Assembly (NCBI RefSeq): GCF_040939125.1
Contig: NZ_CP162495.1
Location: 2,852,001-2,916,000, forward strand
From: Clostridium sp. BJN0013
GTDB taxonomy: Bacteria > Bacillota > Clostridia > Clostridiales > Clostridiaceae
DNA length: 64,000 bases
Direction: 5' to 3'
Shown: positions 8,824-62,846 of the stretch, piece by piece
Position numbering within the stretch: the stretch's first letter is position 1
How the letters are laid out: every line of letters starts with the position of its first letter
The notes under the pieces: generated by a model
Seen by the model: the letters and a program-made list of their open reading frames with translations, nothing else
What the model was told of the DNA's origin: nothing
Databases searched by the model: none
Program-made: the position numbers and the translations under genes

Positions 8824-8950
8824 AAGTGATTCTAAGGTTTAGGTGAAGTTTGCCCATAAGAAATGCTTTTCTCCATCTAAACATTAGAAGATCTTATTCC
8901 CCACTTCTTCGAAGAAGCTGGGGGTTAACTAATTACCGTATTCGGATAAA
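8824..8950 (+). repeat. Structured repeat, copy A (with internal deletion)
   Basis: Member of the six-copy family. It starts AAGTGATTCTAAG and ends TTCGGATAAA. The 5' hairpin is TTCTAAGGTTTAG paired with CTAAACATTAGAA; the 3' hairpin is CCCCACTTC/GAAGCTGGGG. Compared with copy E it lacks about 22 nt between the two CTTAT direct repeats, removing part of the closing stem. It lies just upstream of the ltaS ribosome site, so it would be in the ltaS leader if transcribed from upstream. Confidence 0.85.
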
Positions 8951-8973
8951 TTTATAAAATAGGAGTAATTGCT

Positions 8974-10836
8974 ATGAATAAATTTAACTTTTCTCTTTTA
9001 GATTTTATAGATATAATTTTTTTTATAGTTATTGTAACAATTAAAATTTTAGTATATGGAAGGCATATAGAAACCGGATACATATCTTCCGCCAAACTCT
9101 TCATTCCAGTTATTGCTTCTGTGCTAATTTTTACTTCTATAGCTTGTATTTTTAAAACCAAAGGGCGTGCCAGATTTTTATATCTATGTAATCTTATAAT
9201 AAGTATTGCTATAATTAGTAATTCCATTTATTTTAGGTATTTCAAAGATCTCATATCTATACCTGTGCTAATAAGTGGATTTCAATTAAATGCAGTAAAA
9301 TCCAGTGTGATTAACTTAATTGATTTTAAGGATTTTTTATACCTTTTTGATATTTTATTTATAATTCCTTTTATCAATAGATATGTATCCAAAAGCAGTC
9401 AGAAGCTTTCCTTAAACTTTAGGCTGTCAATATTTTCAATATTGCTCATATTAGGACTTTTAATAAATTACAGAAGTTTTTATAATTTATCTAAAGAGCA
9501 ACCTAGACTTTTAAGTACTATGTATAATAAGGTGTATATATCAAGAAAATTAGGTATACTGAATTATCACTGTCTGGATATTTATAACACCATTTCTGCA
9601 AATATAAATAAACTTGTTCCTGTTTCTAAGGAGAAATTAGACAAAATACATAACTTTCTGGTATCAAATAAATCCAGTCATGAAAATTTAAAGGGTATTG
9701 CTAAAAATAAAAATCTAATAATGATTCAAGTAGAAGCCCTGCAGAATTTTGTTATAAATAGCTCTATTAATGGTCAGGAAATAACTCCAAATTTGAATGG
9801 GTGGATAAAAAGATCTGAATACTTCAATAACTTCTACTATCAAACAGCTACTGGCGGAACTTCTGATGCAGAGTTTATGACAAATACCTCATTGTATCCT
9901 GCTTCAGCAGGGGCAGCTTATCTTCTTTATTCTAGTAACTATTATAACGCAATGCCTGAAAATTTTAAGAGTAGGGGCTATTCTACCGCTGCCTTCCATG
10001 GATTTAGAGAAAATTTCTGGAATAGAAATATAATGTATCAAAAATTTGGTTTTGATACATTTTACGGTAAAAGCAGCTATAAACAGGATGAATCCATAGG
10101 ACTTGGGTTAAGTGATAAGTCTTTTCTTACCCAGTCTTTAGATAAGCTAAACAAAATGCAATCTCCCTACTATGCCTTTTTAATAACACTTACAAGTCAT
10201 TTTCCCTTCGACGATGTAAACAAGTATGGAGATTTTGATACAGGTGACTTTAAGGATACTCTTATAGGTAATTATATAAAGGCTGTACATTACACAGATG
10301 AACAGCTCGGAATGTTTCTTGATGAATTAGATAAAGAAGGCATATTGAAAAATTCTGTAGTAATATTGTATGGGGATCACCACGCAATACCCAAAGATAA
10401 ACAATTGCAACTTTTTGAATACTTAAATAAGAATTCTCACTCTGATGTGGAGTGGGAGAAACTCCAAAAAGTTCCTATGTTTATCCACTTTCCTGATGAA
10501 TCTGTAAAAGGTGTAAACCCTGTTTATGGAGGACAAATGGACATATATCCTACTGTATGCAATTTGTTTGATTTACCTGAGAAAGAAATGCTGGGAAAAG
10601 ATTTATTCAATGCTGAAAATCAAAGTGTTATATTTAGAAATGGATCTTTTATAAATAAAAATTATTACTATTCCTCTCAAGATGATGCATATTATGATAT
10701 AAATACAGACAGCAAAACCGCAAAAAATGATATACTTAAAGCAGAAAAGGAAAATGTATTAAATCAATTAGAGTACTCAGATTATATATTGAAGCATAAT
10801 TTAATTAAAAAATTAGATTCCTATAAAAATAAATAA
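8974..10836 (+). CDS. ltaS: Lipoteichoic acid synthase-like membrane sulfatase
   Basis: 620-aa protein of the LtaS family, which polymerises glycerol-phosphate from phosphatidylglycerol outside the membrane. Five hydrophobic segments fill residues about 1-165, followed by a linker and an extracellular alkaline-phosphatase-like domain. The catalytic-Thr region ATGGTSDAEF is near residue 290, and the metal-site pieces MIQVEALQNF, HGFRENFWNR and YGDHHAIPKD are present. AGGAG lies 7 nt before the ATG. Structured repeat copy A ends 23 nt upstream. The downstream tatD gene is 18 nt away and probably co-transcribed. Phosphoglycerol transferase is the safe call; exact polymer unproven. Confidence 0.88.
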   Translation: MNKFNFSLLDFIDIIFFIVIVTIKILVYGRHIETGYISSAKLFIPVIASVLIFTSIACIFKTKGRARFLYLCNLIISIAIISNSIYFRYFKDLISIPVLISGFQLNAVKSSVINLIDFKDFLYLFDILFIIPFINRYVSKSSQKLSLNFRLSIFSILLILGLLINYRSFYNLSKEQPRLLSTMYNKVYISRKLGILNYHCLDIYNTISANINKLVPVSKEKLDKIHNFLVSNKSSHENLKGIAKNKNLIMIQVEALQNFVINSSINGQEITPNLNGWIKRSEYFNNFYYQTATGGTSDAEFMTNTSLYPASAGAAYLLYSSNYYNAMPENFKSRGYSTAAFHGFRENFWNRNIMYQKFGFDTFYGKSSYKQDESIGLGLSDKSFLTQSLDKLNKMQSPYYAFLITLTSHFPFDDVNKYGDFDTGDFKDTLIGNYIKAVHYTDEQLGMFLDELDKEGILKNSVVILYGDHHAIPKDKQLQLFEYLNKNSHSDVEWEKLQKVPMFIHFPDESVKGVNPVYGGQMDIYPTVCNLFDLPEKEMLGKDLFNAENQSVIFRNGSFINKNYYYSSQDDAYYDINTDSKTAKNDILKAEKENVLNQLEYSDYILKHNLIKKLDSYKNK

Positions 10837-10854
10837 TTTATACGGAGGTAAAAT

Positions 10855-11592
10855 ATGTTTGTTGATGCACATAACCATTTAGACTTTTATAAGGACAGTT
10901 TGAATTTAAATAAGGCGTTGAACATAATAGACTGTGATAATATTAAAACGCTGGGTTGTTCTATGAATCTGGAAAGTTACCTTTTCACTAAAAATTTAAG
11001 TATATCCCACAAAAACATAATCCCCTGTTTTGGAATTCACCCCTGGGAAGCTTATAAAAACTACAGAAACCTGGATACCTTTGATGAATATATAAAAGAG
11101 TGCAAGGTCATTGGTGAAATAGGTCTTGATTATCACTGGGTTTTAGAAAGTGAAAAATTTCCTTATATGAATAGAGTTTTTGAATACTTTTCAGATAAAG
11201 CTAGTAAATACAATAAAATTACCAACATACATACAAAAGGAGCTGAAAATGAGGTACTACAGACTATAAAAAAATATAACTTAAGGACACCTATTATTCA
11301 TTGGTACAGCGGAGATTTGGATACATTAAAAAAATTTTTAGATTACGGCTGCTATTTTACAATAAGTATTGATATAGGTCATTCCAGCCTTACCAATGAA
11401 ATAGTAAAATTACTTCCTTTAGGTAGAATTTTCACCGAAACTGATGGACCAACAGCTTTAAAAAATAATAAATATGTATATCCAGACGAGGTAAAAAACA
11501 TAATAAAATGGATTTCTTTTATAAAAAATATCCCTTATGAAGAAGTTAAAGCACAAATTTGGAATAATTTCAACACACTATTTAGCAACTAA
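10855..11592 (+). CDS. TatD-family metal-dependent hydrolase
   Basis: 245-aa TIM-barrel hydrolase. Metal-ligand motifs follow the TatD order: VDAHNHLD at the N-terminus, GIHPWE, GEIGLDYHW, NIHTKGAE, PIIHWYSGD and a final ETDGP. TatD enzymes are DNases or related phosphoesterases; the substrate here cannot be told. Some positions (HWYSGD for the usual HCFSG) match the Qat/anti-phage-type or divergent TatD branch rather than classic TatD, but the context next to ltaS is not a defence locus. AGGAGGT-like site (CGGAGGT) before the ATG. Confidence 0.8.
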   Translation: MFVDAHNHLDFYKDSLNLNKALNIIDCDNIKTLGCSMNLESYLFTKNLSISHKNIIPCFGIHPWEAYKNYRNLDTFDEYIKECKVIGEIGLDYHWVLESEKFPYMNRVFEYFSDKASKYNKITNIHTKGAENEVLQTIKKYNLRTPIIHWYSGDLDTLKKFLDYGCYFTISIDIGHSSLTNEIVKLLPLGRIFTETDGPTALKNNKYVYPDEVKNIIKWISFIKNIPYEEVKAQIWNNFNTLFSN

Positions 11593-11608
11593 TTATTATG
11601 TATGATTT

Positions 11609-11642
11609 AAATGAGCAAACTCTATTATAGTTTTGCTCATTT
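11609..11642. terminator. Bidirectional terminator
   Basis: An 11-bp inverted repeat, AAATGAGCAAA / TTTGCTCATTT, separates the rightward tatD gene from the leftward membrane-protein gene. A- and T-rich edges on both sides suit termination in either direction. Confidence 0.7.
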
Positions 11643-11663
11643 ATAGTATGTATTATTTTAAAC

Positions 11664-11990
11664 TTATTTCTTTTCTTTATTTTGATTTTTCTTGATTCTG
11701 GACTTTTTATACATAAAATCTACAGTAATAGCTAAAAGTAAAAATGCCGATAATAGTATCTCCAGATTATCTCCCACTGGTGAATAATAGTATGAAACAA
11801 ATTGAACTATTAATATTACAGTGCCCAATACAATAAGAAAATTCACTTTGAAATTTACATATTTTTTATCTACACCTTCCGCATCCAATCTAAATTTTTT
11901 TCTCACTGCTTTGCTGTATTTCATTCCTAGTCCCTGAATAACACCCATAAAGCCTAAAAGGGTTAATAAATTTGTCATAGCTGACTCCAT
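11664..11990 (-). CDS. Small membrane protein, three predicted helices
   Basis: 108-aa protein with hydrophobic segments near residues 5-20, 47-65 and 75-93, and a Lys-rich C-terminal tail. The ATG at 11990 has GGAGG 8 nt upstream; the earlier ATG at 12017 has no site. I do not recognise the family. It is monocistronic, flanked by a convergent tatD gene and a divergent MBL hydrolase gene. Confidence 0.6.
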   Translation of the reverse strand: MESAMTNLLTLLGFMGVIQGLGMKYSKAVRKKFRLDAEGVDKKYVNFKVNFLIVLGTVILIVQFVSYYYSPVGDNLEILLSAFLLLAITVDFMYKKSRIKKNQNKEKK

Positions 11991-12160
11991 ACCAAATACC
12001 TCCACATAAATTTTCATTGTCAGTAAAAACTTCTTTAAAAATTATATCATGGCAGCATTAAAATTTCAAAATCCCTATATAGTCATCTTGATTACATAAT
12101 AGAATATGATATGATTAAATATATATTAATCTTATCAACAATACAAGGAAGTGTCACAAA

Positions 12161-13057
12161 ATGAATTTAAATAAAATAAAAGGCAGTACTTATTATATAG
12201 ATGCTCCCACCAACTGTGGAATATTCATTTTTAAGAATAAAAATTGCTTGATTATAGACACCGGCATAAATAACGGAGACGCTAAAAAAATAGAAACTTT
12301 ACTTCTTGAAAATAATCTTCATCCCAAATATATAATAAATACTCACAGTCACATGGATCACTGCGGCGGCAATCTATATTTCAAAAAAAATTATCCTGGC
12401 TGCCTGGTATATACTTCAAAAGGTGAAAAGATATTTATGGAAAATCCAGATCTTTTTTCTTCCATACTTTCATGCTGCCATCCTTCAAAAGCATTTAATA
12501 AAAGCAGTAAACCCATAGATGTAGATTTTATTTTAGATTATGGTATTAATAAATTGAATGATGAAAAATTCAATATAATTTCACTGCCTGGACATTCTAA
12601 AGAACATATAGCCATAGTTACCCCAGAAAAAGTTTGTTTTCTTGGAGATTCCATATTTAGCAGTGAAATATTAGATAAATATTCTTTTCCCTACTTATAT
12701 AATATAGAAGATAGCCTGACCTCTCTAAATACTATAAAAGAATTGGAGGCAGATTATTTTGTAATAAGTCATTCTGAAAAAATACTAACTAAAGAAGAAA
12801 TAATCAATTTAGCCCAGGCTAATATTACAAATATATACAAATACAAAGATGAAATATTAGATCTTTTAGAACAGCCATTAACCCGGGAGGACATACTTGA
12901 AAATATCACTATACTAAATGAATTATCCCTGGATTTTCATCAATACCACTTAAATTTTGCAGGTATATGCGCCTTTATAAACTATTTGTACAATAATAAA
13001 CTTATAGATTACTCCATAGAAGATGGTAAACTATATTATTTTAAGGTATCTGACTGA
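12161..13057 (+). CDS. MBL-fold metallo-hydrolase
   Basis: 298-aa protein of the metallo-beta-lactamase superfamily. Zinc ligands are in THSHMDHCGG (residues about 65-74), SLPGHSKEH, GDSIF and SHSEK near residue 205. Glyoxalase II-like and quorum-quenching-like members share these motifs, so the substrate is open. AAGGAAGTG lies before the ATG. Its last 22 nt overlap the end of the convergent gene on the other strand. Confidence 0.8.
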   Translation: MNLNKIKGSTYYIDAPTNCGIFIFKNKNCLIIDTGINNGDAKKIETLLLENNLHPKYIINTHSHMDHCGGNLYFKKNYPGCLVYTSKGEKIFMENPDLFSSILSCCHPSKAFNKSSKPIDVDFILDYGINKLNDEKFNIISLPGHSKEHIAIVTPEKVCFLGDSIFSSEILDKYSFPYLYNIEDSLTSLNTIKELEADYFVISHSEKILTKEEIINLAQANITNIYKYKDEILDLLEQPLTREDILENITILNELSLDFHQYHLNFAGICAFINYLYNNKLIDYSIEDGKLYYFKVSD

Positions 13058-14106
13058 AATAAACTACTTCTTATTTTGTTGTCACTTTCACTGATTACTC
13101 CATAATCATATACAGCTATTAGATTTCCCGAATATTTTGTAACCTCACCTGTAGTAATCTCTTTCACCTGGCTATTGACAGGATCATCTATGTATATTTT
13201 ACCATATCTTGTAATATGTATATTATTCTTATCAATATATTCTGACAATGCATGGATCTTCCAGTTGGTACCAGTAGATTGGAGATTTGTTACAAATATT
13301 TTATTTATCTTATTATTGTCTCCATTTCCTATATAAACATTATTTTCTTTATCCGTGTTTAATAGATAGTGCATTGCATTTTCTCCTGTAGCTATTACTC
13401 CACCTTTCCCCGTTCTTATCCTGTTATAGGTTCTGTCCTCATAGATTAGCTCATCACCATTTTTTGTATTTACAGCTTTTATATTTCCAAGTTCACAGTT
13501 TACAAAATTAACCAGGTTCATTTGATTCATAATATTTACTCTGTATATTCTACTTCTTGCCCCTTCTCTCCCCGAACTTACGTAAGTCACATTACTCGCC
13601 CCGGAAAAGGCTATATATTTAACTTCATACTCTTCATCTGGAAGCAGTATAGATAATTCTTCATTGCTCTCTTCATTTTTTAAAGTATAGGTAGCATCTT
13701 TCTTCGGATTATAGGATTCAAATTTTAAATAACTATCTCCTCCTTCAATGGACTTTTCTGCTATAAGAATATTATTGGTATCCAAAAACCAGGTATAATA
13801 TGACAATTCATTGCCATCAGCTAAAGTTACTTCTTTTTTATCATTATTTGATGTATCAACTACAATTAAAGATTCACCATTATAGTAGGATATATACTCT
13901 CCACTATGAGAAATCTTTATATCTTTTGCATCCTCCGGGATTTTTACATTAATTTTGTTGGGTTCCTTCTTTGAAGATACATCTACTTTTTTTATATTAA
14001 AATTTAATTCATCATTAAAATAAAATTTATCCATAAATAAAAGAGCTGCCATCTCTATAATTATTGGAATTAAAGTCCACATCATTATTCTCTTAAGTTT
14101 TTTCAT
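13036..14106 (-). CDS. Membrane-anchored extracytoplasmic protein, possible beta-propeller
   Basis: 356-aa protein with one N-terminal transmembrane anchor (residues about 7-25) and an outside domain. The body has repeated segments of the form ISHSGEYISYYNG, TYTLKN, SGRE, IRTGKGG and VYIGNGDNN that resemble propeller blades, but no family is recognised. The start follows GGAGAG. It sits 15 nt downstream of the phosphodiester-glycosidase-like gene, so the two exported proteins probably form an operon and act together at the cell surface. Confidence 0.65.
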   Translation of the reverse strand: MKKLKRIMMWTLIPIIIEMAALLFMDKFYFNDELNFNIKKVDVSSKKEPNKINVKIPEDAKDIKISHSGEYISYYNGESLIVVDTSNNDKKEVTLADGNELSYYTWFLDTNNILIAEKSIEGGDSYLKFESYNPKKDATYTLKNEESNEELSILLPDEEYEVKYIAFSGASNVTYVSSGREGARSRIYRVNIMNQMNLVNFVNCELGNIKAVNTKNGDELIYEDRTYNRIRTGKGGVIATGENAMHYLLNTDKENNVYIGNGDNNKINKIFVTNLQSTGTNWKIHALSEYIDKNNIHITRYGKIYIDDPVNSQVKEITTGEVTKYSGNLIAVYDYGVISESDNKIRSSLFQSDTLK

Positions 14107-14121
14107 ATATCACACTCTCCT

Positions 14122-15141
14122 CTAAGGCTTTACATATAATACCGTAGCCACGGTTCTCTCCCCATTCCAATCACAAGGGTCGTTTATTACTTCCCCATTA
14201 AAATACATAGTAGTAGAGGAACCTCCATCTAAATTGCCGGCATTAACTACCCCCTGCTGTAAGAGTATGTTTTGTATTTCTTTCAAAGAGGCACCGGTTT
14301 TGAATCCTTTTCTCCCATCTACAACCAACATTACTATAGTTCCATCTGCTTTTTGGCCTATAGCTGTTCTGGGATTTAAGCCCTCATTTTCTACAGCTAC
14401 AGTCTTTCCATTTATTATTAGTGAATTTCTGAAAGAAATTGCCTCCTGTACATTTTCATCTAAAAGTTCCTGCAGGGTATGATCCCCAACTATAAGCCTG
14501 CCATCTGAAGTAAAAGCTGTAACATTTATCTTATCGGAATAGTCAACATCACTATATATAAGTTTTCCTCCAGATATTATAATTCCCTCGGGATAAGCTC
14601 CTGTTCCCACCCACATCTTACCGCTGGTGGTTTTATCTGAGAATCCTCCTCCATTTATGGCAGCTACGGCTCCATTACGCTCTGCTATTTCACTGGTTCT
14701 CTCCCCTACTTCTTTTAATTTACTTGTATATCCCACCTTTATCCTCTTTGGATCATTTATTTCAAGAATGTACCCATCAAATTTTCTATTATTTGTTATA
14801 TCATACCTTTTAATATCATTATCACCTACATGACTTATATTTACATTATCAGGATTTTCCTTTTCTGCACTGGTGGTTTCGCCACTTTTACCCTGATTGA
14901 GTATTTTTGTTATTTCATCATCAGACAAAAAAATGGTAGCTATATACTGATGGCTGAGAGTTGCCATAGCCGTACCTACTATCTGACTTTTTACATTCTT
15001 AAAAGGTCCATAAAATACCAATATAGGACCTGCAATAATAAATACTATTAATTCATATATTAGAAATAAAATAAGTGACTTAAAAACACTTTTTTTCTTC
15101 TTCTTTCTTTTCTTTCTACGCCTATTTTCTAAATTACTCAT
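14122..15141 (-). CDS. Phosphodiester glycosidase (NAGPA/DUF2233) family exoprotein
   Basis: 339-aa protein with a basic N-terminus (RRRKKRKKKKK) and one transmembrane helix near residues 22-45, so the catalytic part faces outside. Family motifs are clear: AAINGGGFSD, NPRTAIGQ, VVDGRKGF and the terminal NAGNLDGGSSTTMYFNG. The family cleaves or handles GlcNAc-phosphodiesters and is common beside cell-wall polymer genes. GGAGGT lies 8-9 nt before the ATG. First gene of a probable two-gene operon. Confidence 0.85.
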   Translation of the reverse strand: MSNLENRRRKKRKKKKKSVFKSLILFLIYELIVFIIAGPILVFYGPFKNVKSQIVGTAMATLSHQYIATIFLSDDEITKILNQGKSGETTSAEKENPDNVNISHVGDNDIKRYDITNNRKFDGYILEINDPKRIKVGYTSKLKEVGERTSEIAERNGAVAAINGGGFSDKTTSGKMWVGTGAYPEGIIISGGKLIYSDVDYSDKINVTAFTSDGRLIVGDHTLQELLDENVQEAISFRNSLIINGKTVAVENEGLNPRTAIGQKADGTIVMLVVDGRKGFKTGASLKEIQNILLQQGVVNAGNLDGGSSTTMYFNGEVINDPCDWNGERTVATVLYVKP

Positions 15142-15272
15142 AAAAGTTATACCTCCATATAATATAGGTACTATTTTACTATTATTTTTAAATTATTTCT
15201 ACCGAAAAAGGTATCATGAGTAAATTTGTAACATAATATTTATAAACTTTCCCTAATAATTTAGAGGTCTAA

Positions 15273-15315
15273 ATAAAAAAGCTAATCACCCCTTATAAAA
15301 ACAGAGTGATTAACT
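15273..15315 (-). terminator. Terminator of the pur operon
   Basis: On the minus strand AGTTAATCAC pairs with GTGATTAGCT across a loop of about 16 nt and is followed by TTTTTTATTT. It starts 12 nt after the purD stop. Confidence 0.8.
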
Positions 15316-15326
15316 ATTTATCTAAA

Positions 15327-16568: not shown

Positions 16569-16611
16569 TGTATACACCCCTTTTTTCAATTCACAATTCA
16601 CGATTTACAAT

Positions 16612-22563: not shown

Positions 22564-22620
22564 TAAAATCGACAAACCAATTTAAAACTCAACAAAAAAT
22601 ATCAAGCTTTAAAGGAATTC

Positions 22621-22690
22621 ATCCATAGACGGGAAATTTACGGCTTCCTGTAGAAACTCCTAAACCACATTATTAGGATTATATGGATAC
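22621..22690 (-). promoter_or_regulatory. Guanine riboswitch aptamer, pur operon leader
   Basis: On the minus strand the purine-aptamer layout is complete: P1 GTATCCATA/TATGGATG, the ATAATCCTAATAATGTGG P2 arm, the GTTTCTAC junction, and the P3 loop with CCGTAAAT. The specificity position lies in GTCTATGG and is C, which in this family means guanine or hypoxanthine rather than adenine. Guanine binding is expected to favour the terminator at 22517-22563 and shut off the operon. Confidence 0.93.
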
Positions 22691-22712
22691 TTTATTTATT
22701 TATGATATAATT

Positions 22713-22886: not shown

Positions 22887-23465
22887 ATGAAATTAGTATG
22901 TTTAGGGGATAGTTTAACTTCTGGATACGGCGTTTTTAAAGAGGATTGTTGGGTATCTCTTATAAGAGACCTACTAAAAATTGAAGTTTTAAACAAAGGA
23001 ATAAATGGAGATACCATGCCGGGAATGTTATCCCGTTCCTATAGAGATGTGGTTAAAAATTATCCAACTCATGTAATTATACTTGGAGGATCCAATGATT
23101 TTATGGCTGGCAGACGTCTAAAACTTGTAACAGATAATTTAACTGAAATAATAAAAGAATCTTTAAATGCAGGGATAATCCCCATTATAGGTACAGAACC
23201 TATTATAGATAAAACACTGGCTGAAAAAAAATGGGACGGAACTGTAGATTATGATAAAGTAAATAATTTACTGGTTCATTATAGAAATTGGATATTGGAC
23301 TTTTGCACCGAAGATAATATTTATTACATAGATCTTTATACTTGCTTTCTTGAACAATTAAAAACAACGGATAACAGCTCTCTATTTATAGATGGCATAC
23401 ACCCCACAGCAATAGGACATAAGTTAATAGCAGAATGTATCTTAAATTTTTTCAGAACTCTTTAG
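22887..23465 (+). CDS. SGNH/GDSL-family lipase or esterase
   Basis: 192-aa hydrolase. Block I is LGDSLTSGYG (Ser nucleophile near residue 8), block III is GGSNDF with the oxyanion Asn, and block V is DGIHPTAIGHKL with Asp and His. No signal peptide, so it acts in the cytoplasm. Similar to TesA-like thioesterases and lysophospholipases; the substrate is unknown. AAGGAGG lies about 11 nt before the ATG, with a TTG between, so the start is slightly uncertain. Divergent from the pur operon. Structured repeat copy B begins 22 nt after the stop. Confidence 0.82.
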   Translation: MKLVCLGDSLTSGYGVFKEDCWVSLIRDLLKIEVLNKGINGDTMPGMLSRSYRDVVKNYPTHVIILGGSNDFMAGRRLKLVTDNLTEIIKESLNAGIIPIIGTEPIIDKTLAEKKWDGTVDYDKVNNLLVHYRNWILDFCTEDNIYYIDLYTCFLEQLKTTDNSSLFIDGIHPTAIGHKLIAECILNFFRTL

Positions 23466-23486
23466 AATACGTTATCCTTTAGGGGA

Positions 23487-23566
23487 AGGACTTATCCAGG
23501 GGCGTTAGGCTTATCCCCCCACTTTGAAGAAGATGGGGGTGCAGCTAATTCTAGCCTTCGGATAAA
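23487..23566 (+). repeat. Structured repeat, copy B (3' domain only)
   Basis: Only the closed 3' domain is present, from CTTATCCAGGGGC to GCCTTCGGATAAA. The closing stem is TTATCC-A-GGGGC with GCCTT-C-GGATAA, and the inner hairpin is CCCCCAC...ATGGGGG. Compared with copy E the stem carries a swapped C-G/G-C pair. The absence of the 5' hairpin shows that the two domains are separable. Confidence 0.8.
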
Positions 23567-26210: not shown

Positions 26211-26264
26211 AATTACGGGCAATCCAAATTAGAAAATAACAAAAAATATTACTTTCCCGTGATT
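26211..26264 (-). terminator. Putative expression-platform terminator of the permease riboswitch
   Basis: On the minus strand AATCACGGG pairs with CCCGTAATT across a long loop and is followed by TAGAAATTTTTTT. Its 5' arm shares a few bases with the 3' end of the aptamer P1, so ligand binding could bias the fold. Confidence 0.5.
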
Positions 26265-26336
26265 CACTCATAGTCAAGGATTTTTGGTGCCTTGGTAGAT
26301 ACTCTTGAACCATATTATCAAGATTATACGAATGAT
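26262..26336 (-). promoter_or_regulatory. Guanine riboswitch aptamer, purine permease leader
   Basis: Second purine aptamer, about 90 nt upstream of the permease start. The minus strand reads CATTCGTATAATCTTGATAA, the P2 arm closes with TTCAAG, then GTATCTACC, a P3 arm with loop CACCAAAAAT, and GACTATGAG. The specificity base is C, so guanine. The L3 sequence differs from the usual CCGTAAAT, unlike the pur operon copy. Confidence 0.9.
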
Positions 26337-26466
26337 TTATCGAAAAATTTAGTAAATTTACGTAATTATCTTATCATTATATACGTAATAAGTCAACATT
26401 TATGTTTTAAAAAAGTTAACAATATATTTTAATTCATAGTTATGATAAATTCAGTCTGTAGCCTGT

Positions 26467-48641: not shown

Positions 48642-48943
48642 CTTTTTAGTCTTATAATAATATAACGATTTATAAATAAAAAATACTTCACATAGTTTAG
48701 AATTATTTCACATTTCCACAAACTCATTTTATCTTGCATTCAAATACATATTACGACATTTTTTACAAACTATGTGATAGCATATATTATATTCTTAGCA
48801 TATTAGGAAATCTAAAAGCAAACTCCACCTGAACCTCTGAAGCACTTAATAAAGCTTCTAGTATACATTATTTATACATTAATAATACATACTAGAAGCT
48901 CTTGAAACTATATTCAGAATTATCCCCATCAAACAGAAGATAT
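48642..48943. other. Intergenic region upstream of the ECF operon
   Basis: About 300 bp. A 10-bp inverted repeat CACATAGTTT (48689-48698) and AAACTATGTG (48767-48776), 68 bp apart, lies where the sigma promoter should be; it could be an operator or a small element. At 48852-48900 AGCTTCTAGTAT pairs with ATACTAGAAGCT across a 24-nt loop, facing the end of the leftward gene at 48944 and probably terminating it. Confidence 0.45.
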
Positions 48944-53311: not shown

Positions 53312-53602
53312 TAATATTCTCTTTTTTGTATAATGGCTTTCCTTTAATAAATCTTGGGCTATTTCTACAGCCTTTTCTTCCTTAGCACTACTTATTTATG
53401 TCTTCCACACAGTACTCTCTCTAGCCTTATAAATTTCTTAGACAACATAAAAATATATGCAACATAATTATTAAAACTTAAATAAAAATTACATTTATTT
53501 GTTGTAAACCATTTACTTTAGCTCCATATTTCACAAAGGATATATTAATCCAGCAAGGATAAAATATTAATGAGTTAAAAATATGCACTTATAGGAGGTA
53601 AT

Positions 53603-53890: not shown

Positions 53891-53954
53891 AAATGTGGGA
53901 TAATTTAATAGTTCCAAACGCTTTCTAATTCTCATTATAAAAAGATTTTATCCC

Positions 53955-53975
53955 TTTCCACAAATTGCTTTAGAA
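53955..53975 (+). repeat. Right 21-bp direct repeat flanking the XRE/Spo0E island
   Basis: Exact copy of the 51458-51478 sequence, same orientation, 2.5 kb apart. The segment between holds the two XRE paralogs, the unknown 167-aa protein, Spo0E and DUF2382. No integrase or transposase lies between the copies. Confidence 0.7.
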
Positions 53976-54110
53976 AATTTTATGATTTTAATTAGACTAA
54001 CAGAGAAAAATATTATAATATCATTATTATAGTAAAATAATAATACAGTTTATTTATTTTTGTAAAAATATATATTAAATTATTGAATTATAGGTATTTT
54101 TTATATTATT

Positions 54111-54258
54111 AAGTGATTCTAAGATTTAGATGAAGTTTGCTTATGAGAAATGCTTTTCTCCACTTGAATCTTAGAAAAACTTATTCAAACGCAGGCAGTG
54201 CTTATCCCCTACTTTGAAGAGGCTGGGGGGTATTAGCTAGTTGCAGAGTTTGGATAAA
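54111..54258 (+). repeat. Structured repeat, copy C
   Basis: Starts AAGTGATTCTAAGATTTAG and ends GTTTGGATAAA. The 5' hairpin TTCTAAGATT/AATCTTAGAA carries A-T where copy E has G-C. Closing stem TTATTCAAAC / GTTTGGATAA. Inner hairpin CCCCTACTTT...GGCTGGGGG. It ends 18 nt before the ftsH ribosome site. Confidence 0.85.
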
Positions 54259-54288
54259 TCAATTGATCTATTCCGGGAGGGGATGCTT

Positions 54289-56052: not shown

Positions 56053-56110
56053 ATCTAAAACTCATATTCGGTATAAGCTGTCATATTTTAGCTGTTTACA
56101 TACCGGAATC

Positions 56111-56257
56111 AAGTGATTCCTAGGTCCAGGTGGAGTTTGCACATGAGGAATGCTTTTCTCCATCTGAACCTTAGAATTACTTAGCCATGTACACAGCAGT
56201 GCTTATCTCCCTCTTTGAAGAAGATAGGAGTATTAGCTGATTACTGCGTTCGGAAAA
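56111..56257 (+). repeat. Structured repeat, copy D
   Basis: Starts AAGTGATTCCTAGGTCCAG and ends TTCGGAAAAAA. The 5' hairpin TAGGTCCAGGTGGAG / CTCCATCTGAACCTTA is kept; the closing stem is degenerate. Inner hairpin CTCC...TCTT-TGAAG-AAGA...GGAG. It ends directly at the stop codon of the leftward rhomboid gene and follows ftsH. Confidence 0.8.
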
Positions 56258-56259
56258 AA

Positions 56260-57285
56260 TTAAACTTTTTTAAGACCTATATTACTTATTACGTAAGTAA
56301 TAAGTATACCTCCTATAAGCCCCCCTATATGTCCAAAATTATCTACATTAGCTACGGAAAACCCTATTATAAGGTTCATTATAATTATAGTTACTATATT
56401 CATAACAAATTCCTTAGCTACAGAATGTTTCATTTTAAGGGCAAATACCAAAGATGCACCCAAAAGTCCAAATATTGCTCCTGAGGCTCCTACAGATATG
56501 GAAGATGAGAACATATAACTAAATATGGAGGAAAACAATCCTGAAATAATATATATAACTATATATTTAAGTTTTCCATATACTTTTTCAATAAAAGTGC
56601 CCATCACATAAAGAGAATACATATTTACTCCCAAATGTACTATGCCTGCATGTAAAAACATACATGTAAATAATCTATAGTATTGTCCTTTATCTATGAG
56701 AAGATTCACCTTAGCTCCCATAAATACCAATACATTTAAATTACTATCTATTATGCTGCCGGATAAATATGAAGTTCCTATATATACTAATATATTTAAA
56801 GCTATAATTATATAGGTAACAATTATCTCTTTTATTCTTTTTCTACTGGATATATTTTTAGAATCCCTCATATAAATCATACTCTGTAATATTTGGTTTG
56901 CCAGCTCTCTTGATCCTTCTGTATAATATACTAATTGATTTGAATCAGGATTAATTAAAATTAATTCACACTGTCTATGTATTTTATAATCTAATTGATA
57001 ATTATTTATATGTTCTACAGATAAGTTAGTTTTTCTATTCATAATTATTTGTGTAAACTGTAAATTCCTATTTTGAAATAACTTTTCTAAGTCTGAAATA
57101 AGAGATTCAAAATTCATATTTCTATAACTTTCATCTTTGAGGAAAAATATAACTCTTACTGCATTATTTTCTTCCCTCCATAATGCCCACTTACCATATA
57201 ATCCCTGATTTTTTTCTATTTCTATAATTTTAAAATTATAAGCTTTATATAATATTTCTATTAAATTATCAATATACAAGTTCAT
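56260..57285 (-). CDS. Rhomboid-family intramembrane serine protease
   Basis: 341-aa protein. An N-terminal cytosolic domain of about 170 residues precedes six or so helices. Catalytic Ser is in SVGASGAIFGLLGA (GxSG) and His in DNFGHIGGLIGG; the LFTCMFLHAGIVHLGVNMYSL motif is typical. AGGGAGAAG precedes the ATG. The soluble domain has no recognised family. Monocistronic. Confidence 0.9.
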   Translation of the reverse strand: MNLYIDNLIEILYKAYNFKIIEIEKNQGLYGKWALWREENNAVRVIFFLKDESYRNMNFESLISDLEKLFQNRNLQFTQIIMNRKTNLSVEHINNYQLDYKIHRQCELILINPDSNQLVYYTEGSRELANQILQSMIYMRDSKNISSRKRIKEIIVTYIIIALNILVYIGTSYLSGSIIDSNLNVLVFMGAKVNLLIDKGQYYRLFTCMFLHAGIVHLGVNMYSLYVMGTFIEKVYGKLKYIVIYIISGLFSSIFSYMFSSSISVGASGAIFGLLGASLVFALKMKHSVAKEFVMNIVTIIIMNLIIGFSVANVDNFGHIGGLIGGILITYVISNIGLKKV

Positions 57286-57357
57286 ATTCTTCTCCCTAAA
57301 AGCATAAAATAATATATATCTAATTTACACTATATAAAAATTTTTATTCTGCTTTTA

Positions 57358-58416
57358 TTAAATCAATCCCTTTATAACCACATTAGGTGTCTGTAATAGG
57401 TCCAATTCATAACCAGGTATAGAGTTCCCTGTATCCACATCATAAAGCACTCTTATTACTGGCCTATCCGGAAATCCTTTATTTTGCTTTACAACATAAC
57501 CTTTAATTCTATTTGATAATTGAACTCCACACCCTAGAGGATATATAGCAAAAGTATTCTTAAAATTATATACTAAATTTTGATCAAAATTACTACCACT
57601 TCCCGAAAGTATAAGTTCATAGGCATCATTTGGACTGAATTTTCTTCTATAACACCTATCATTGCTCACTGCGTCATATACATCACATATACAAATTAGT
57701 TTTGCATAGTTTGTTATCTGCTTGTCCTCAAGTCCATAAGGATATCCCCTGCCATCTATTCTTTCATGGTGTTGTTCAACTATTTTAATTACTGCATCTG
57801 AAATTATAACATTTTTTTTAAGAATTTTAGCCCCATATATAGGATGATTTTTTATCTCTTTAAATTCTTCATCTGTTAACTTAGTTTCCTTATTCAATAT
57901 TTCTAAGGGAATCTTTGTTTTCCCTATATCATGCAAGGAAGCCCCTATGCCAATTTCTCTCAATTGCCATTTGTCATATCCTGCTGAGACACCTAGAAAA
58001 GAAGCCATAATACAAGTATCTATTGAGTGAATAAATGTATAATTATCATAGGTCTGTATATCATAAAGACTTTTATTCACATCGCCAAGTTCAATTATAT
58101 AGTTTACCATATCTTCTATACCTATAAAGGATTTTCTCAATTCTTTTTCATTACAATTATATAAATTACTCATTATATTTGACATACTTTTCATTGACGC
58201 TTGCTTCAATTCCAATAACTTTTCATCTTCTATATTCACATCTTCTAATCTTTCATCTTCTACATATAAATAAAATACACCTAACTCTTTCAATTTATTT
58301 ATATAATTATTGGTCAATTCTACTCCTGTTTTTAATAAAACTTGTCCATCGCATGTCAATATGCTTTTTCCAAGCACATCTTTTTCATTAACTCTATTTA
58401 TGAACTCTAATCTCAT
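57358..58416 (-). CDS. HD-GYP-domain cyclic di-GMP phosphodiesterase-like protein
   Basis: 352-aa protein. The HD pair is in ASLHDIGKTKIP and the GYP motif in EQHHERIDGRGYPYGLED; ICDVYDAVSNDRCYR is also typical. The N-terminal 120 residues begin with a short beta-rich piece and no membrane segment. Such proteins hydrolyse c-di-GMP and affect motility and surface life. GAGGTGAAG precedes the ATG. Confidence 0.9.
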   Translation of the reverse strand: MRLEFINRVNEKDVLGKSILTCDGQVLLKTGVELTNNYINKLKELGVFYLYVEDERLEDVNIEDEKLLELKQASMKSMSNIMSNLYNCNEKELRKSFIGIEDMVNYIIELGDVNKSLYDIQTYDNYTFIHSIDTCIMASFLGVSAGYDKWQLREIGIGASLHDIGKTKIPLEILNKETKLTDEEFKEIKNHPIYGAKILKKNVIISDAVIKIVEQHHERIDGRGYPYGLEDKQITNYAKLICICDVYDAVSNDRCYRRKFSPNDAYELILSGSGSNFDQNLVYNFKNTFAIYPLGCGVQLSNRIKGYVVKQNKGFPDRPVIRVLYDVDTGNSIPGYELDLLQTPNVVIKGLI

Positions 58417-58560
58417 TGCTTCACCTCAATAAAATTTGATATATTCAATTTCTTTTCTAACTAAAAGCATATCACATTTAAGATATAAATTAAAATATTT
58501 TAGTTAACTTACTAAAAATTAATTATGAAGGATTAATTCATTTTTAGCTAAAAATACTAA

Positions 58561-58605
58561 AATTTCTATTTACTTACAAATAGAAATTGGTTATTATAAT
58601 TATAA
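58561..58605 (+). promoter_or_regulatory. Inverted repeat and PerR/Fur-box-like site upstream of a small exported gene
   Basis: AATTTCTATTT / AAATAGAAATT (58561-58588) is a perfect 11-bp inverted repeat. Right after it TTATTATAATTATAA (58591-58605) matches the PerR box TTATAATnATTATAA at all but one position. The same 15-mer occurs at 8800-8814. AT-richness makes chance matches possible. The fur/perR gene converges from the other side. Confidence 0.45.
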
Positions 58606-58635
58606 AGAATATTTTTTATATTATGGAGGTATCTC

Positions 58636-58959
58636 ATGAAAAAATTTATATTTTCCATAATAGTTACCTTGTTAACTATTGTAATAATAAAAAATATATA
58701 TATATCAAAAAAATGTATGGATATCAACTATGCAGTTAAAAACTATTTTACTACAGGAATTTTTAACAAATACAGAATATATAACATGGAAGATGTAACT
58801 CTATCATTTTCCAACGGTAAAGCTGCTTTCATTAAAGTTAAAGGTATATCAGGTAAAACACCTCACCACAAAGTAGAATATACTGTATTTTTAGAAAAAA
58901 ATATTAATGGTACTTGGAAAGTAAAAAAGGTATATACTAATGAAGTAACTCTACAATAA
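58636..58959 (+). CDS. Small exported or membrane-anchored protein
   Basis: 107-aa protein. Residues 3-22 form a signal anchor (FIFSIIVTLLTIVIIKNI), followed by a soluble part rich in beta strand (VEYTVFLEKNINGTWKVKKVYTNE). GGAGGT lies 7 nt before the ATG. Its last 9 nt overlap the end of the convergent fur gene. A PerR-like site in its promoter suggests stress or metal control. No family recognised. Confidence 0.7.
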   Translation: MKKFIFSIIVTLLTIVIIKNIYISKKCMDINYAVKNYFTTGIFNKYRIYNMEDVTLSFSNGKAAFIKVKGISGKTPHHKVEYTVFLEKNINGTWKVKKVYTNEVTLQ

Positions 58960-59397
58960 TTTTCTTGTACCATGATTTAGTTGTTTATTTCTACAATCTT
59001 TACATATACCACTTATTTTAAAATCCAATTCTTCATCTACAAGTACAAAATCTGTTTTACTTTTTATTATTTCTTCTATTTGTTGCATGGGACAATCTAT
59101 CTCTACTTGTTTTTCACATACCTTACATTGTAATATATGTTTATGATTTTTTCTTATTATAGCATAGCTGTGTCTTCCTTTACCTAAATCAAATTTTCTC
59201 ACAATTTTTTTATTTTCAAATAACTCCAAAGTTCTATAAATTGTAGATAAATCTACATTTACATTTTTTTGTTTATACTCTTGAAATAAATCTTCTACAC
59301 TCATTGCACTTTCACTTTCATATAATATATCTAAAATATTTAATCTTGCCTGTGTAACTTTTATTCCATATTTTCTTAAGGATTTTTCTATATCCAT
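58951..59397 (-). CDS. Fur-family metalloregulator (PerR/Fur/Zur type)
   Basis: 148-aa regulator. The winged HTH (KVTQARLNILDILYESESAMSVEDLF...LSTIYRTLELFE) is followed by RKNHKHILQCKVCEKQVEIDCPM and CKDCRNK. The two CxxC pairs form the structural zinc site; HKHILQC is the conserved metal-binding face. Full length. It follows mntP by 20 nt, which favours an oxidative or manganese/iron role, PerR-like. GGGGTGG precedes the ATG. Confidence 0.88.
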   Translation of the reverse strand: MDIEKSLRKYGIKVTQARLNILDILYESESAMSVEDLFQEYKQKNVNVDLSTIYRTLELFENKKIVRKFDLGKGRHSYAIIRKNHKHILQCKVCEKQVEIDCPMQQIEEIIKSKTDFVLVDEELDFKISGICKDCRNKQLNHGTRKLL

Positions 59398-59417
59398 AAA
59401 ACCACCCCAAATTCCAC

Positions 59418-59969
59418 TTAAAAAAGCATCATTTTGATACCAAATATAATAAGTATTATGCCCCCAATATAGTCTGCATACTTGCTTATAGCATGTATTT
59501 TTCGAAGATACCTTGAGATAACAAAAGCAAAAGAAGTCAATATAAGGGTTACCACACCTATAAATAAAGTATGATATAGTATATCTAACACATTTCTCAT
59601 ATTGTTTAAAGCAGTAAATCCAATCACTAAAGCATCAATACTTACAGAAATCCCAAGTATAATAACCATTCCAGGTTTCACAAGCGTATGCTGTTTTTTA
59701 CTTTGAAAACCTTCTTTAAGCATAAGTATACCTACAATTGATACTACTGCCCCTCCAACTATTTCAGGAATAGAGACAATATACTTATTAAATAAAAAAC
59801 CTCCATAGGCACCCATCATAGCAAAGAAAAACTGAAAAAATGCAAAAGATATTATAAATTGAATTTTTTTATTTCTTTTTATTGAATTGTTTAGACCTAT
59901 AGATATAGCAACACTAAAAGCATCTAAAGAAAGTGCCAGAGCAATTAAAAATAAGGATCGAAATGCCAT
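59418..59969 (-). CDS. mntP: MntP-type manganese efflux pump
   Basis: 183-aa protein with six helices. LFLIALALSLDAFSVAISIGL, GMVIILGISVSIDALVIGFTAL and YADYIGGIILIIFGIKM are MntP hallmarks, including the conserved Asp residues of helices 1 and 4. AGGAAAGG precedes the ATG. No yybP-ykoY manganese riboswitch is visible upstream; instead structured repeat E lies there in the opposite sense. Operon with the Fur-family gene. Confidence 0.88.
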   Translation of the reverse strand: MAFRSLFLIALALSLDAFSVAISIGLNNSIKRNKKIQFIISFAFFQFFFAMMGAYGGFLFNKYIVSIPEIVGGAVVSIVGILMLKEGFQSKKQHTLVKPGMVIILGISVSIDALVIGFTALNNMRNVLDILYHTLFIGVVTLILTSFAFVISRYLRKIHAISKYADYIGGIILIIFGIKMMLF

Positions 59970-59998
59970 ATTACCTTTCCTCTCACATTGAAATTATC

Positions 59999-60147
59999 AA
60001 GTTCTTCTAAGGTTCAAGTGGAAGTTTGCCTATGAGAAATGCTTATCTCCATCTGAACCTTAGAAGAACTTATCCAGGCGCATAGCAGCGCTTATCTCCC
60101 ACCTTGAAGAAGATGGGAGTATCAGCTAATTCTAGCGTTCGGATAAA
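59999..60147 (+). repeat. Structured repeat, copy E (best preserved)
   Basis: 5' hairpin with an 18-bp perfect stem: AAGTTCTTCTAAGGTTCA (59999-60016) with TGAACCTTAGAAGAACTT (60054-60071). Closed domain: TTATCC-A-GGCGC with GCGTT-C-GGATAA, inner hairpin CTCCCACCTT-GAAG-AAGATGGGAG. It ends 6 nt before the stop codon of the leftward gene at 60153. Confidence 0.88.
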
Positions 60148-60152
60148 TAACA

Positions 60153-60923
60153 TTACCTCACTATATGTATATATGGTTTATTTATATATATTCCACCTTT
60201 AAGATTCATAGGAAAAACAAGTATATATCCATTATTCTTAAGCCAATCTCTTCGACTTACATAATCAGGTATCTCATGTTCCACCAGCTTCCAATAATCT
60301 TTAGAATGATTCATATACACCAGATGACATAATTCATGTACAACTATGTATTCTATGATCCTCATAGGCGCCATTAAAAGTCTGCAGTTAAAATTTATAT
60401 TTCCATTTGAATAACAACTTCCCCATATGGTTTTCTGACATCTAATAGTTATATTCTTGGGATATACATTCAGTTTTTTGCTATACACATTTACCTTATA
60501 CTTAAAAATCAATTTAGCTTTTTCCCTATAAAATTTAAATATGATATCTCTCATATTTTCTTCGTCTTCCAACAAAGTTTTACTTCCATAGATTACAAAG
60601 TTATTTTTAAAAATTTTAATATAATATTTTTGTGTGTCCAATATATATTTTTTAATATTTAAAAGTTTCCCAAGCCATAGTATTTTTTTCCCCTGTTGGA
60701 TATCTATTAACTTTACATTTTGCATTCTTTCTTTTACTATGTGGACATTTTTCAATATCCAGGGTATCTTATTTTTTACAACTTCCTCTATATACTTATA
60801 GCTTATATGATAGGGAGCATATATAATTACTTTTCCCTTTTCATCAATTTTGATACTTATATTTTTTTTACTTTTTCTAATTACCGTATAACTTAATGAA
60901 AGAAATTGATGAGTAGTTTCCAT
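60153..60923 (-). CDS. YgjP-like (DUF45) M48-family metallopeptidase-like protein
   Basis: 256-aa protein. IEYIVVHELCHLVYMNHSKDYW is the HExxH zinc motif with the distal His, and TIRCQKTIWGSCYSNGNINFN is the YgjP region just before it. No signal peptide. The N-terminal beta-rich domain (KKNISIKIDEKGKVII...) is standard for the family. The start follows GAGAGG. It is 12 nt downstream of ctpA, so in one operon. Confidence 0.87.
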   Translation of the reverse strand: METTHQFLSLSYTVIRKSKKNISIKIDEKGKVIIYAPYHISYKYIEEVVKNKIPWILKNVHIVKERMQNVKLIDIQQGKKILWLGKLLNIKKYILDTQKYYIKIFKNNFVIYGSKTLLEDEENMRDIIFKFYREKAKLIFKYKVNVYSKKLNVYPKNITIRCQKTIWGSCYSNGNINFNCRLLMAPMRIIEYIVVHELCHLVYMNHSKDYWKLVEHEIPDYVSRRDWLKNNGYILVFPMNLKGGIYINKPYIHIVR

Positions 60924-60935
60924 ATTTTTACCTCT

Positions 60936-62558
60936 CTATTTCTTTACAACAATAGGCTTTATGACATCTTTAATCTTTATGTAATAAGTCTGTCCCTTAT
61001 CTAATTTTTCTTTTGGGGTAAGAACGGCCTTACTGCCTTTTAAAATGTTTATATCAAAATCCACTCTCTTACCTGTATTACTATTTATGATCTCCATAGT
61101 TATATTACTATTTAAATCAAAATTTATTTCTTTATTAAAAGTTACAGTAAATGACTTATCTTCCGGTACTTTATTTAAAGTATCTAATAACTTATAATCA
61201 GAGTAAAAAAATTTATATATATTGTTAAAGTATTCATCAGGAGCATTTTTCCAACCATCTTTAGTTCCTATATAAACTTTAGATTTTGATGCATGTCCTA
61301 TTATATACTTAAAAGTTGACCAATACTCTTCACTTTTAGCCATATTTAAATCTATATTAAATTCTCTCTCATCTAATGTAATTTTCACAAATCCACGCTT
61401 ATCTATATTATTTCTACACTTTCCTGATAACAGTTGCGCTACTTTTAAAGCATCTAAATCGTCTGTATCCAAGTCAGGTTTTACACCTACTTCTTGTATT
61501 TCTTTACCCAAAGGAGAATAAAATTTTTGTGTAGTCAATTTTAACGCACTTCCATTAGAAAGTTGAAATATTTGTTGTGCTACTCCTTTTCCATAGGTAA
61601 CATTGCCTATAAAAAAGGCTTTCTTATAATCCTTAACCGCAGCCGCCAATATCTCAGAAGCACTGGCTGTATTTCCATTGGTTAAAAATATAACTGGTTT
61701 ATCCATTACAATTTTATGTTGCCCGGTTAAATATCCTATTTTATTCTTATTCTTGTCCTCAACTATTAAAGCCAAATTATTCCCTATAAAATTTCCAGCT
61801 ATATCTACCGCAGAATACATATACCCTCCCCCATTATCTCTCAAATCTATTATATAGCTTTCCGGGTTTTTTACACTAAGCTCCTCCAATGTCTCATCTA
61901 ATTTCTGAGAAGTATTTTCTCCAAAAGATGATATATAAATATATGCCGTGCTATTATCTAACATAATACCCTCTACTGTAGATAATTGTAATTCTGCCCT
62001 CTGTATACTAAAATTTAGTATTTCATTCCCCCTTTGTACTACAAGATTTACATTAGTACCTTCTTCACCACGTATATATTTCCCTATTTCATTTATATTC
62101 AAATCAATAATTGAACTTGAATCCACAGAAGTTATAATGTCTCCTTCTTTTAATCCTGCAATTTCTGCCGGAGAATTCTTGATTACAGAAACCACCTGAG
62201 CTCCAGTAGAAACTTTATTCATTTCTATGCCTATTCCACACACTTTGTTATCTATCTGATTTAAAAAATCTTCCTCTTCCTCAGCTGAAAAATATTGGCT
62301 ATAAGGATCACCCAATCCAGTCAATATTTCATCTATGCTAGATTTATTTAATACACTATCGGATACATCATTAATATAGTTATCTTTAATTATATTTCTA
62401 ACCTCGTTCAAAGTCTGGGAATCTTGAGCATGTACACTAACCGTAAAACCAAATATAAAAAACATTAATGAAAATATTATAAAAATATTTTTCACATTAA
62501 AATTTAGTTTTAATTTCTCAGCTGAACCTATACCCCCAAATTTAGATCTGATTTTCAT
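60936..62558 (-). CDS. ctpA: S41 C-terminal processing peptidase with a C-terminal Ig-like domain
   Basis: 540-aa exported protease. ATG 62558 follows GGAGGAA; the longer frame to 62678 has no site. Signal peptide or anchor at residues about 25-45. PDZ domain with VVSVIKNSPAEIAGLKEGDII; catalytic Ser in TNGNTASASEILAAAVKDY and Lys in TYGKGVAQQIF. The last 80 residues (FTVTFNKEINFDLNSNITMEI...) resemble an SbsA Ig-like domain and may bind the wall. Typical CtpA lacks this tail. Confidence 0.88.
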   Translation of the reverse strand: MKIRSKFGGIGSAEKLKLNFNVKNIFIIFSLMFFIFGFTVSVHAQDSQTLNEVRNIIKDNYINDVSDSVLNKSSIDEILTGLGDPYSQYFSAEEEEDFLNQIDNKVCGIGIEMNKVSTGAQVVSVIKNSPAEIAGLKEGDIITSVDSSSIIDLNINEIGKYIRGEEGTNVNLVVQRGNEILNFSIQRAELQLSTVEGIMLDNSTAYIYISSFGENTSQKLDETLEELSVKNPESYIIDLRDNGGGYMYSAVDIAGNFIGNNLALIVEDKNKNKIGYLTGQHKIVMDKPVIFLTNGNTASASEILAAAVKDYKKAFFIGNVTYGKGVAQQIFQLSNGSALKLTTQKFYSPLGKEIQEVGVKPDLDTDDLDALKVAQLLSGKCRNNIDKRGFVKITLDEREFNIDLNMAKSEEYWSTFKYIIGHASKSKVYIGTKDGWKNAPDEYFNNIYKFFYSDYKLLDTLNKVPEDKSFTVTFNKEINFDLNSNITMEIINSNTGKRVDFDINILKGSKAVLTPKEKLDKGQTYYIKIKDVIKPIVVKK

Positions 62559-62702
62559 ACATATTCCTCCTAATTTTAAATCAATTATACACTTTTTTGA
62601 AAAATATATACCGTTTTTGAAAAATATCACATAAAAAGGATATACATTCAATATAAAGTTTAAAATATTGATCTGCACATCCTTTTTTAGTATTTCTAAA
62701 TT

Positions 62703-62846
62703 AAGTGATTCTTAAATTCAGGTTAAATTTTCTATAAGGAAGCTTTTTCTTCATCTGAATCTTAGAAGAACTCATAAAGGAGCATATCAGTACTTATCCC
62801 ACCCTAAAGAAGCTGAGGTATTAGCTAATTACCGCTTTGGAATAAA
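62703..62846 (+). repeat. Structured repeat, copy F
   Basis: Starts AAGTGATTCTTAAATTCAG. The 5' hairpin TTCAG/CTGAA and flanks are kept with two mismatches. The closing stem is GGAGC / GCTTT, where copy E has GGCGC/GCGTT and copy B GGGGC/GCCTT. It lies between ctpA and the next leftward gene, ending 42 nt before its stop codon. Confidence 0.82.

Follow-up and report, generated by a model that had tools for sequence, protein, structure and literature searches.

The closest described counterpart of the repeats analysed here is bcr1, which is said to be specific to the Bacillus cereus group. One report describes bcr1 as a short, interspersed, non-coding repeat with 11 to 130 copies per genome, whose movement is linked to a TTTAT motif and which some plasmids are reported to carry (PMC6542083). 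In two other papers, bcr repeats are called MITE-like (miniature inverted-repeat transposable element; PMC3446304), and bcr1 to bcr3, the group A Bacillus cereus repeats, are listed with a conserved structure; the second of these papers also gives sizes of 93, 74, 163 and 74 bp for Clop-1, Clot-1, Efa-1 and Bhal-1, respectively (PMC2267715). Here we describe a family of structured repeats in a 64,000-nucleotide stretch of Clostridium sp. BJN0013 (contig NZ_CP162495.1, positions 2,852,001 to 2,916,000 of the forward strand), referred to as the window. We interpret them, with a probability of about 0.6, as a non-coding, non-autonomous mobile DNA element, that is, a bcr1-like miniature element composed of two long hairpins side by side.

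Judged by descriptions rather than by sequences, the family appears to work like bcr1: both are short, non-coding and present in many copies, with movement linked to TTTAT. The hosts differ, since the present family occurs in Clostridium and in genomes of other classes. Clop-1, Clot-1, Efa-1 and Bhal-1 are likewise interspersed, structured repeats of Firmicutes, and differ from the element in their listed sizes. Derivatives of IS200/IS605 elements (PATEs and REP/RAYT) lack a target duplication, have a short target at one edge and carry hairpins near their ends. The element resembles them in its one-edge pentamer target, in the absence of a duplication and in its subterminal hairpins, but the Y1 transposase is without a match in four copy-bearing genomes, one of which has fresh insertions, the ends are unlike those of the local IS200, and the strand bias is weak. 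In comparison with classical MITEs, the element is similarly small, non-coding, intergenic and of high copy number, but it has two side-by-side hairpins instead of terminal inverted repeats and no true target duplication. The element is best placed among the short structured non-autonomous elements of bacteria, and its breadth is unusual.

Insertion sites and ends of the element

The six copies (A to F) that an earlier note had picked out in the window are real, and four of them (C, D, E and F) are full-length. The copies and their parts are listed below in window positions. G000 denotes the genome of the window, a single contig of 4,101,691 bases, and G004 and G011 are sister genomes that are about 92% identical to it in coding genes.

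8821..8950, plus strand: copy A, 130 nt, with an internal deletion within the element
23438..23566, plus strand: copy B, of the "long" sub-form, 5'-truncated, covering positions 74-202 of the long-form profile
54108..54258, plus strand: copy C, full-length element, with no counterpart in G004 and G011
54254..54258, plus strand: target ATAAA, present once, on the right (3') side of copy C
56108..56258, plus strand: copy D, full-length, with a same-place counterpart in G004 and G011
59996..60147, plus strand: copy E, full-length, with a same-place counterpart in G004 and G011
60000..60070, plus strand: 5' hairpin P1 of copy E, 17 + 5 bp in the predicted fold
60071..60145, plus strand: 3' domain P2-P5 of copy E, with the closing stem and inner hairpin
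62700..62847, plus strand: copy F, full-length, old and decayed, with a degraded counterpart in G004 and G011

Insertions of the element differ between the sister genomes. An empty site reads xxATAAAyy and the corresponding filled site xxAT[CAAG...CGG]ATAAAyy; at copy C, the filled TATATT-ATTAAG...GGATAAA-TCAATT of G000 stands opposite the empty TATATT-ATAAA-TTAATT of G004 and G011. Empty sites were compared at 13 loci, 7 of which gave clean junctions. The empty site was exactly ATAAA at four of these (L054:4859, copy C of the window, L083:7837 and G004 31509) and one base off at the other three: GTAAA opposite G004 51265, ATAGA opposite G004 210745 and ATGAA opposite L084:4717. Window copies A and F and G004 78066 were left out as remnants or degraded copies, and L065:3222, L083:1960 and G004 104697 as too diverged to be read. 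Insertion is thus precise to within one base and targets ATAAA, which reads TTTAT on the opposite strand. No true target duplication was seen at the clean junctions, where the target occurs once, on the right side.

Edge statistics were taken from 121 copies chosen for an end-to-end match to the profile. The right-edge ATAAA/TTTAT is conserved at 97-100% per position in these copies, and outside AT...ATAAA the flanks show a preference of at most 0.16 bits, for A/T. In other families the left edge is usually ATAAA or ATCAA and the right edge ATAAA, with exceptions such as ATATA or ATACA on the right side of L214 and L220. These edge sequences, together with the empty sites, show that the left edge (ATCAA, ATTAA or ATAAA) is coded by the element and that the right ATAAA is the target. 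Ambiguity at the edges is limited to the shared AT.

Family size and distribution

The element is about 151 nt long and has sharp ends. A covariance model (R1) was built from 39 copies, the earlier note having proposed one built from the six. It gave at least 150 matches in G000; a blast search with copy F returned 40 places. Across the window and further stretches, 794,795 bases of the latter, R1 produced 176 matches at E ≤ 0.01. Some of the weak ones are the 5' hairpin read backwards, and the best 125 of the 176 (≥59 bits) were used further. Copy E has the top model score among the window copies. The stretches of G000 were picked because they bear copies and hence give no density. In 400-kb samples chosen by position, the profile found 16 copies in G004 and 18 in G011.

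Matches were found in 23 of the 59 genomes of a relatives sample and in 11 of the 13 genomes of the genus (both E ≤ 0.001 and including the own genome). Within the class, 18 of 391 genomes had matches at E ≤ 1e-6, spread over six families, and across the phylum 33 of 398 genomes at E ≤ 1e-5, 31 of them from other classes. An exact 26-base pattern recovered 33 named stretches from Clostridium and Clostridiaceae hosts: C. ragsdalei, C. ljungdahlii, C. luticellarii, C. pascui, C. peptidivorans, C. tetanomorphum, Clostridium sp. OS1-26 and BSD9I1, Clostridiaceae BL-3 and one uncultured Clostridium. The earlier note had recognised no named family; in agreement with this, no Rfam family matches the element at its gathering score, and a search with one copy at E up to 10 returned four matches below threshold, which fell in snoRNA and microRNA families. 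Literature searches on bcr-like and Clostridium repeats and on sequence strings of the element met no description of it among the leading titles.

Fold and covariation

The consensus opens with a 5' hairpin, P1, in which positions 5-28 pair with 51-74. Immediately after it comes a closed domain composed of P2 (TATCC/GGATA), P3, P4 and the apical hairpin P5. The two ends of the element are not paired with each other in the folds, which show no terminal inverted repeats but two adjacent hairpins. Structures were drawn from single folds and then tested by pair counts because RNAalifold alone gave no consensus structure for all 84 aligned short copies; with 39 copies it gave just 19 pairs. Both RNAalifold results count against the conservation described below.

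In the genus-level structure R2 (49 pairs, 70 sequences), 87.2% of cells are paired, compared with at most 51.1% in slid controls. The covariation of R2 was 0.163 against 0.137 in shuffled alignments (0/500) and at most 0.080 in slid ones, and 90 cells were changed on both sides against 49.7 shuffled (0/500). Double-sided changes affected 21 pairs, which is not unusual (18.0 shuffled, 79/500). In the cross-family alignment A4, with 41 pairs and 44 sequences of which 43 are distinct, 89.8% of cells are paired. Its covariation is 0.272, whereas shuffled alignments give 0.117 and slid ones at most 0.111; 26 of its 41 pairs were changed on both sides against 14.6 shuffled (0/500), and all five measures lay above every one of 500 shuffles. 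Complementarity of both hairpins is thus maintained across lineages of the phylum, and the claim of the earlier note that the fold, not just the sequence, has been kept holds for the family.

The base exchanges cited in support of that claim are also present. The strands GGCGC/GCGTT (copy E), GGGGC/GCCTT (B) and GGAGC/GCTTT (F) occur as quoted, and the middle pair of this closing stem in 70 copies is CG in 27, GC in 15, UG in 8, UA in 2, AU in 1 and unpaired in 17. The G-C to A-T change in the 5' hairpin recurs in the same 70 copies, with GC in 43, AU in 9, GU in 8 and others in 10. The outer GG/TT pairs proposed for the stem are best read as part of an unpaired AGG/AUC internal loop between P2 and P3, seen in all five other-lineage copies that were folded. 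Single copies vary in stability. The fold z-scores of copies E, C and D are -7.4, -4.0 and -3.4, respectively, and that of copy F is +1.1, no better than its own shuffles. Some distant copies are near-perfect double hairpins, and the distant copy L216 folds at -97.3 kcal/mol (z -17.7).

Genomic setting and divergence

Copies are intergenic and randomly oriented relative to genes. Only 1 of 133 copies from three genomes overlaps an open reading frame of at least 100 aa (simple caller). Of the 131 that could be classed by gene orientation, 44 have the same sense as both neighbours, 42 are antisense to both, 24 lie between convergent and 21 between divergent genes.

Seven orthologous pairs of copies in G004 and G011 differ by 0.120, and their 150-nt flanks by 0.030. 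The idea that the element evolves strikingly faster than its flanks was dropped after comparison with four-fold sites of the same genomes, which differ by 0.084 (22,399 sites, 212 genes). Copies at shared positions are thus not conserved; relative to four-fold sites they are not slowed and, if anything, diverge faster. The divergence of 0.255 obtained for G000 orthologues is too high, as it includes a mis-paired locus (copy B against G011).

An RNA under selection is expected to favour G-U pairs strongly over A-C mismatches. At consensus Watson-Crick pairs in 84 copies, 252 G-U stood against 302 A-C, and 15 lineage consensus sequences gave 23 G-U against 18 A-C, a slight lean to the plus strand. 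Since G-U is barely or not above A-C, a DNA transposition substrate is favoured over a host RNA. Selection on the fold seems to act on the transposing lineages, more likely as DNA.

Insert modules

A 51-nt insert defines the long form and was found in 27 near-full copies (23 in G000, 3 in G004 and 1 in G011), always at a single P1 position between CTTA and GAAG, as in L050:13742-13943. Copy B of the window retains part of it together with the entire 3' domain. Departures from the consensus affect 3.1% of insert sites but 11.9% of backbone sites, whereas private mutations occur at the same density in both (0.023 and 0.022). The nearest neighbour of a long copy by backbone is also long in 10 of 27 cases, against a shuffle mean of 5.9 and maximum of 15 (500 shuffles), so that support for the long form as one clade is weak at best. 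The long form moves as a unit, as seen from the empty sites at G004 31509 and 51265.

The 51-nt insert resembles both arms of the distant-type P1 at 29 of 34 positions (0/20,000 shuffles), for arms picked after the likeness had been noticed. Apparently the same insert sits at the same site of a distant-type backbone in C. ragsdalei (L170:4181-4417), and this copy carries a second module of 57 nt in the tip of P5. The latter, a hairpin of about 57 nt (AAGCAGATATCCCAAATC...), occupies the tip of P5 in a number of Clostridium copies. Its 15 matches at 10 loci are 88-100% alike; 13 lie inside elements and two, at L196, outside any detected element. At L196:480-640 it is present twice in tandem within another hairpin, and at L165:4760-5028 and 1500-1655 it is nested within a related module. 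Judged by presence, these modules suggest exchange between backbones.

Proposed mechanism

In the mechanism that we propose, an enzyme acting in trans would read both hairpins as a DNA structure and cut or recombine at the AT step of both edges (minus strand: TT[T/G]AT^). The intermediate, either circular or single-stranded, would then be joined into ATAAA. Movement would be restricted to copies that still fold, which would account for compensatory change without a function of the single copy.

A wider reading is doubtful, although it would take in the modules. According to it, the repeats would form a phylum-wide class of gene-less elements whose two-hairpin structure encodes their mobility and is read by conserved host or RNA-directed machinery, not by a dedicated transposase, and whose hairpin modules are exchangeable. 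The 51-nt insert would then be a miniature of the first hairpin of the family, placed at one and the same position of backbones that differ widely, and the second module would sit inside hairpin tips, nested in its own kind.

Alternative explanations and candidate enzymes

The earlier note left open a folded RNA or a transposition substrate. The latter is a good reading; that every copy is kept as a functional folded RNA was not supported. It is very improbable that the family is a structured RNA, such as a regulator or untranslated-region element, dispersed by duplication with selection on the fold of each copy. Such an RNA would fit the strong covariation, the position of copy C immediately upstream of an FtsH-like gene and the frequent co-transcription of bcr repeats reported in B. 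cereus (PMC3446304). These points are outweighed by orthologous copies that are not slowed relative to four-fold sites, the absence of a gene-orientation bias, the lost fold of copy F and the 252 G-U against 302 A-C at consensus Watson-Crick pairs of single copies. That the element derives from IS200/IS605 and is moved as single-stranded DNA by a Y1 TnpA, with minus-strand cleavage at TTTAT on the left and TTGAT on the right, is quite unlikely. Its missing target duplication, one-edge pentamer and hairpins near both ends would suit this origin, and Y1 genes are present in 46 of the 59 genomes of the relatives sample, the own genome included. However, a search for the Y1 transposase (PF01797) at E ≤ 0.001 found none in G003, G004, G015 and G025, which bear 51, at least 52, 47 and 38 element matches, respectively, and G004, the only one of the four for which recent insertions are shown, holds insertions that are missing from G011. 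The host IS200 was rejected as the driver because its ends in G000 differ from those of the element, and there is little replication-strand bias: 62 of the 150 matches listed and 18 of the 40 best-scoring ones are co-oriented with the fork (terminus at 2.05 Mb).

A bacterial counterpart of short interspersed nuclear elements (SINE-like) is unlikely. An RNA of about 150 nt would anneal by its AUAAA end to a nicked TTTAT and be copied into the target by a reverse transcriptase acting in trans. This would explain why the element ends in AUAAA and the target is ATAAA, and is compatible with the covarying hairpins, the stabler plus-strand fold, the lean of some counts to G-U and the backbone variants common to long and short copies; reverse transcriptase genes occur in 13 of 17 copy-bearing genomes, including G004. 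The excess of 5' truncation expected of such copying is not seen: among the partial copies of the window and the G000 stretches, 30 in all, 12 retain just the 3' end, 16 just the 5' end and 2 neither. Consensus Watson-Crick pairs show no excess of G-U over A-C, and G003, G007, G015 and G031 have no reverse transcriptase match but bear 51, 22, 47 and 18 element matches of unassessed age. The DEDD transposase of IS110/bridge-RNA elements (PF01548), with 22 matches in G004, is without a match in 7 of the 17 copy-bearing genomes (G005, G007, G009, G025, G031, G034 and G048). Because some genomes with copies lack one or the other, reverse transcriptase and IS110 were rejected as universal drivers; G004 has both, and they are excluded solely as universal requirements.

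An autonomous version of the element, in the form of split halves around a gene, was not found. Gaps of 40-123 nt between halves are inserted modules or local variants, and the few that reach 1-3.4 kb separate two partial copies, as at L071 7191/9832 around an apparently ordinary hydrolase gene. At L162, two copies flank a decayed tnpA, which was set aside as an apparent bystander. As a separate observation, nine IS200-type copies of about 700 bp in G000 (L150-L158) are at least 99.4% alike, and several apparently lie beside hairpin-like sequences.

Several results weigh against the interpretation as a mobile DNA element that we prefer. Neither an autonomous partner nor a mobilizing enzyme was found, and Y1, reverse transcriptase and IS110 each fail somewhere. 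No element match was obtained in 72,556 plasmid records (blastn, 5 query sequences) or 50,697 phage records (2 query sequences), and viral contigs did not match 3 exact element patterns; such absence is odd for a phylum-wide element. The excess of copy divergence over the four-fold rate (0.120 against 0.084) arises partly from one odd pair, the long copies at G004 C1 ~211265 (51265) and G011 C2 ~117920 (37920), which are 25% different between flanks that are 97-99% identical. Simple insertion followed by drift does not suffice here, and independent insertion, replacement or exchange are the options. When pairs with a G-U consensus are included, the 84 copies give 483 G-U against 305 A-C, and A4 gives 45 against 26 in the genus and 43 against 29 in distant copies. 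The consensus fold is 11.6 kcal/mol stabler on the plus strand (-60.7 against -49.1 kcal/mol), and one G-T position of P1 (columns 24-59) recurs in several lineages. The plus-strand stability, the G-U counts and the recurrent G-T position leave room for a role of RNA. Replication-fork skew is weak, with p depending on the assumed terminus: 0.04 for the 2.05 Mb count above and 0.007 for a terminus at 2.2 Mb, where 58 of the 150 matches listed are co-oriented.

The element raises the question of which enzyme moves a 150-bp pair of hairpins into ATAAA where the usual candidates are missing from some hosts. The covariance model may serve to annotate such genomes, and many odd intergenic hairpins may be explained by the family. 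Its insertions mark differences between closely related species, one of them upstream of the FtsH-like gene.

Neighbouring features of the window

Two further features complete the list for the window.

48818..48851, minus strand: fragment, a seventh piece, comprising the 5' end of the element, the first arm of hairpin P1
54283-56052: FtsH-like gene between copies C and D, with matches to Pfam Peptidase_M41, AAA and FtsH_ext

At the locus of copy A, all that G004 and G011 retain is a short piece of the 3' end (TATTCAGATAAA). A gap of 16 nt separates the end of copy C from a purine-rich stretch, GGGAGGGG (54275-54282), which precedes the start codons of the FtsH-like gene; copy C occupies this upstream position in G000 and is missing there in G004 and G011. 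Two purine riboswitches are located at 22606-22706 and 26251-26351 of the window (minus strand), and a 30-nt repeat common to both lies just past their ends. In a genome from another family, tandem c-di-GMP-I riboswitches (L205:1786-1880 and 1934-2010) lie near a copy of the element.

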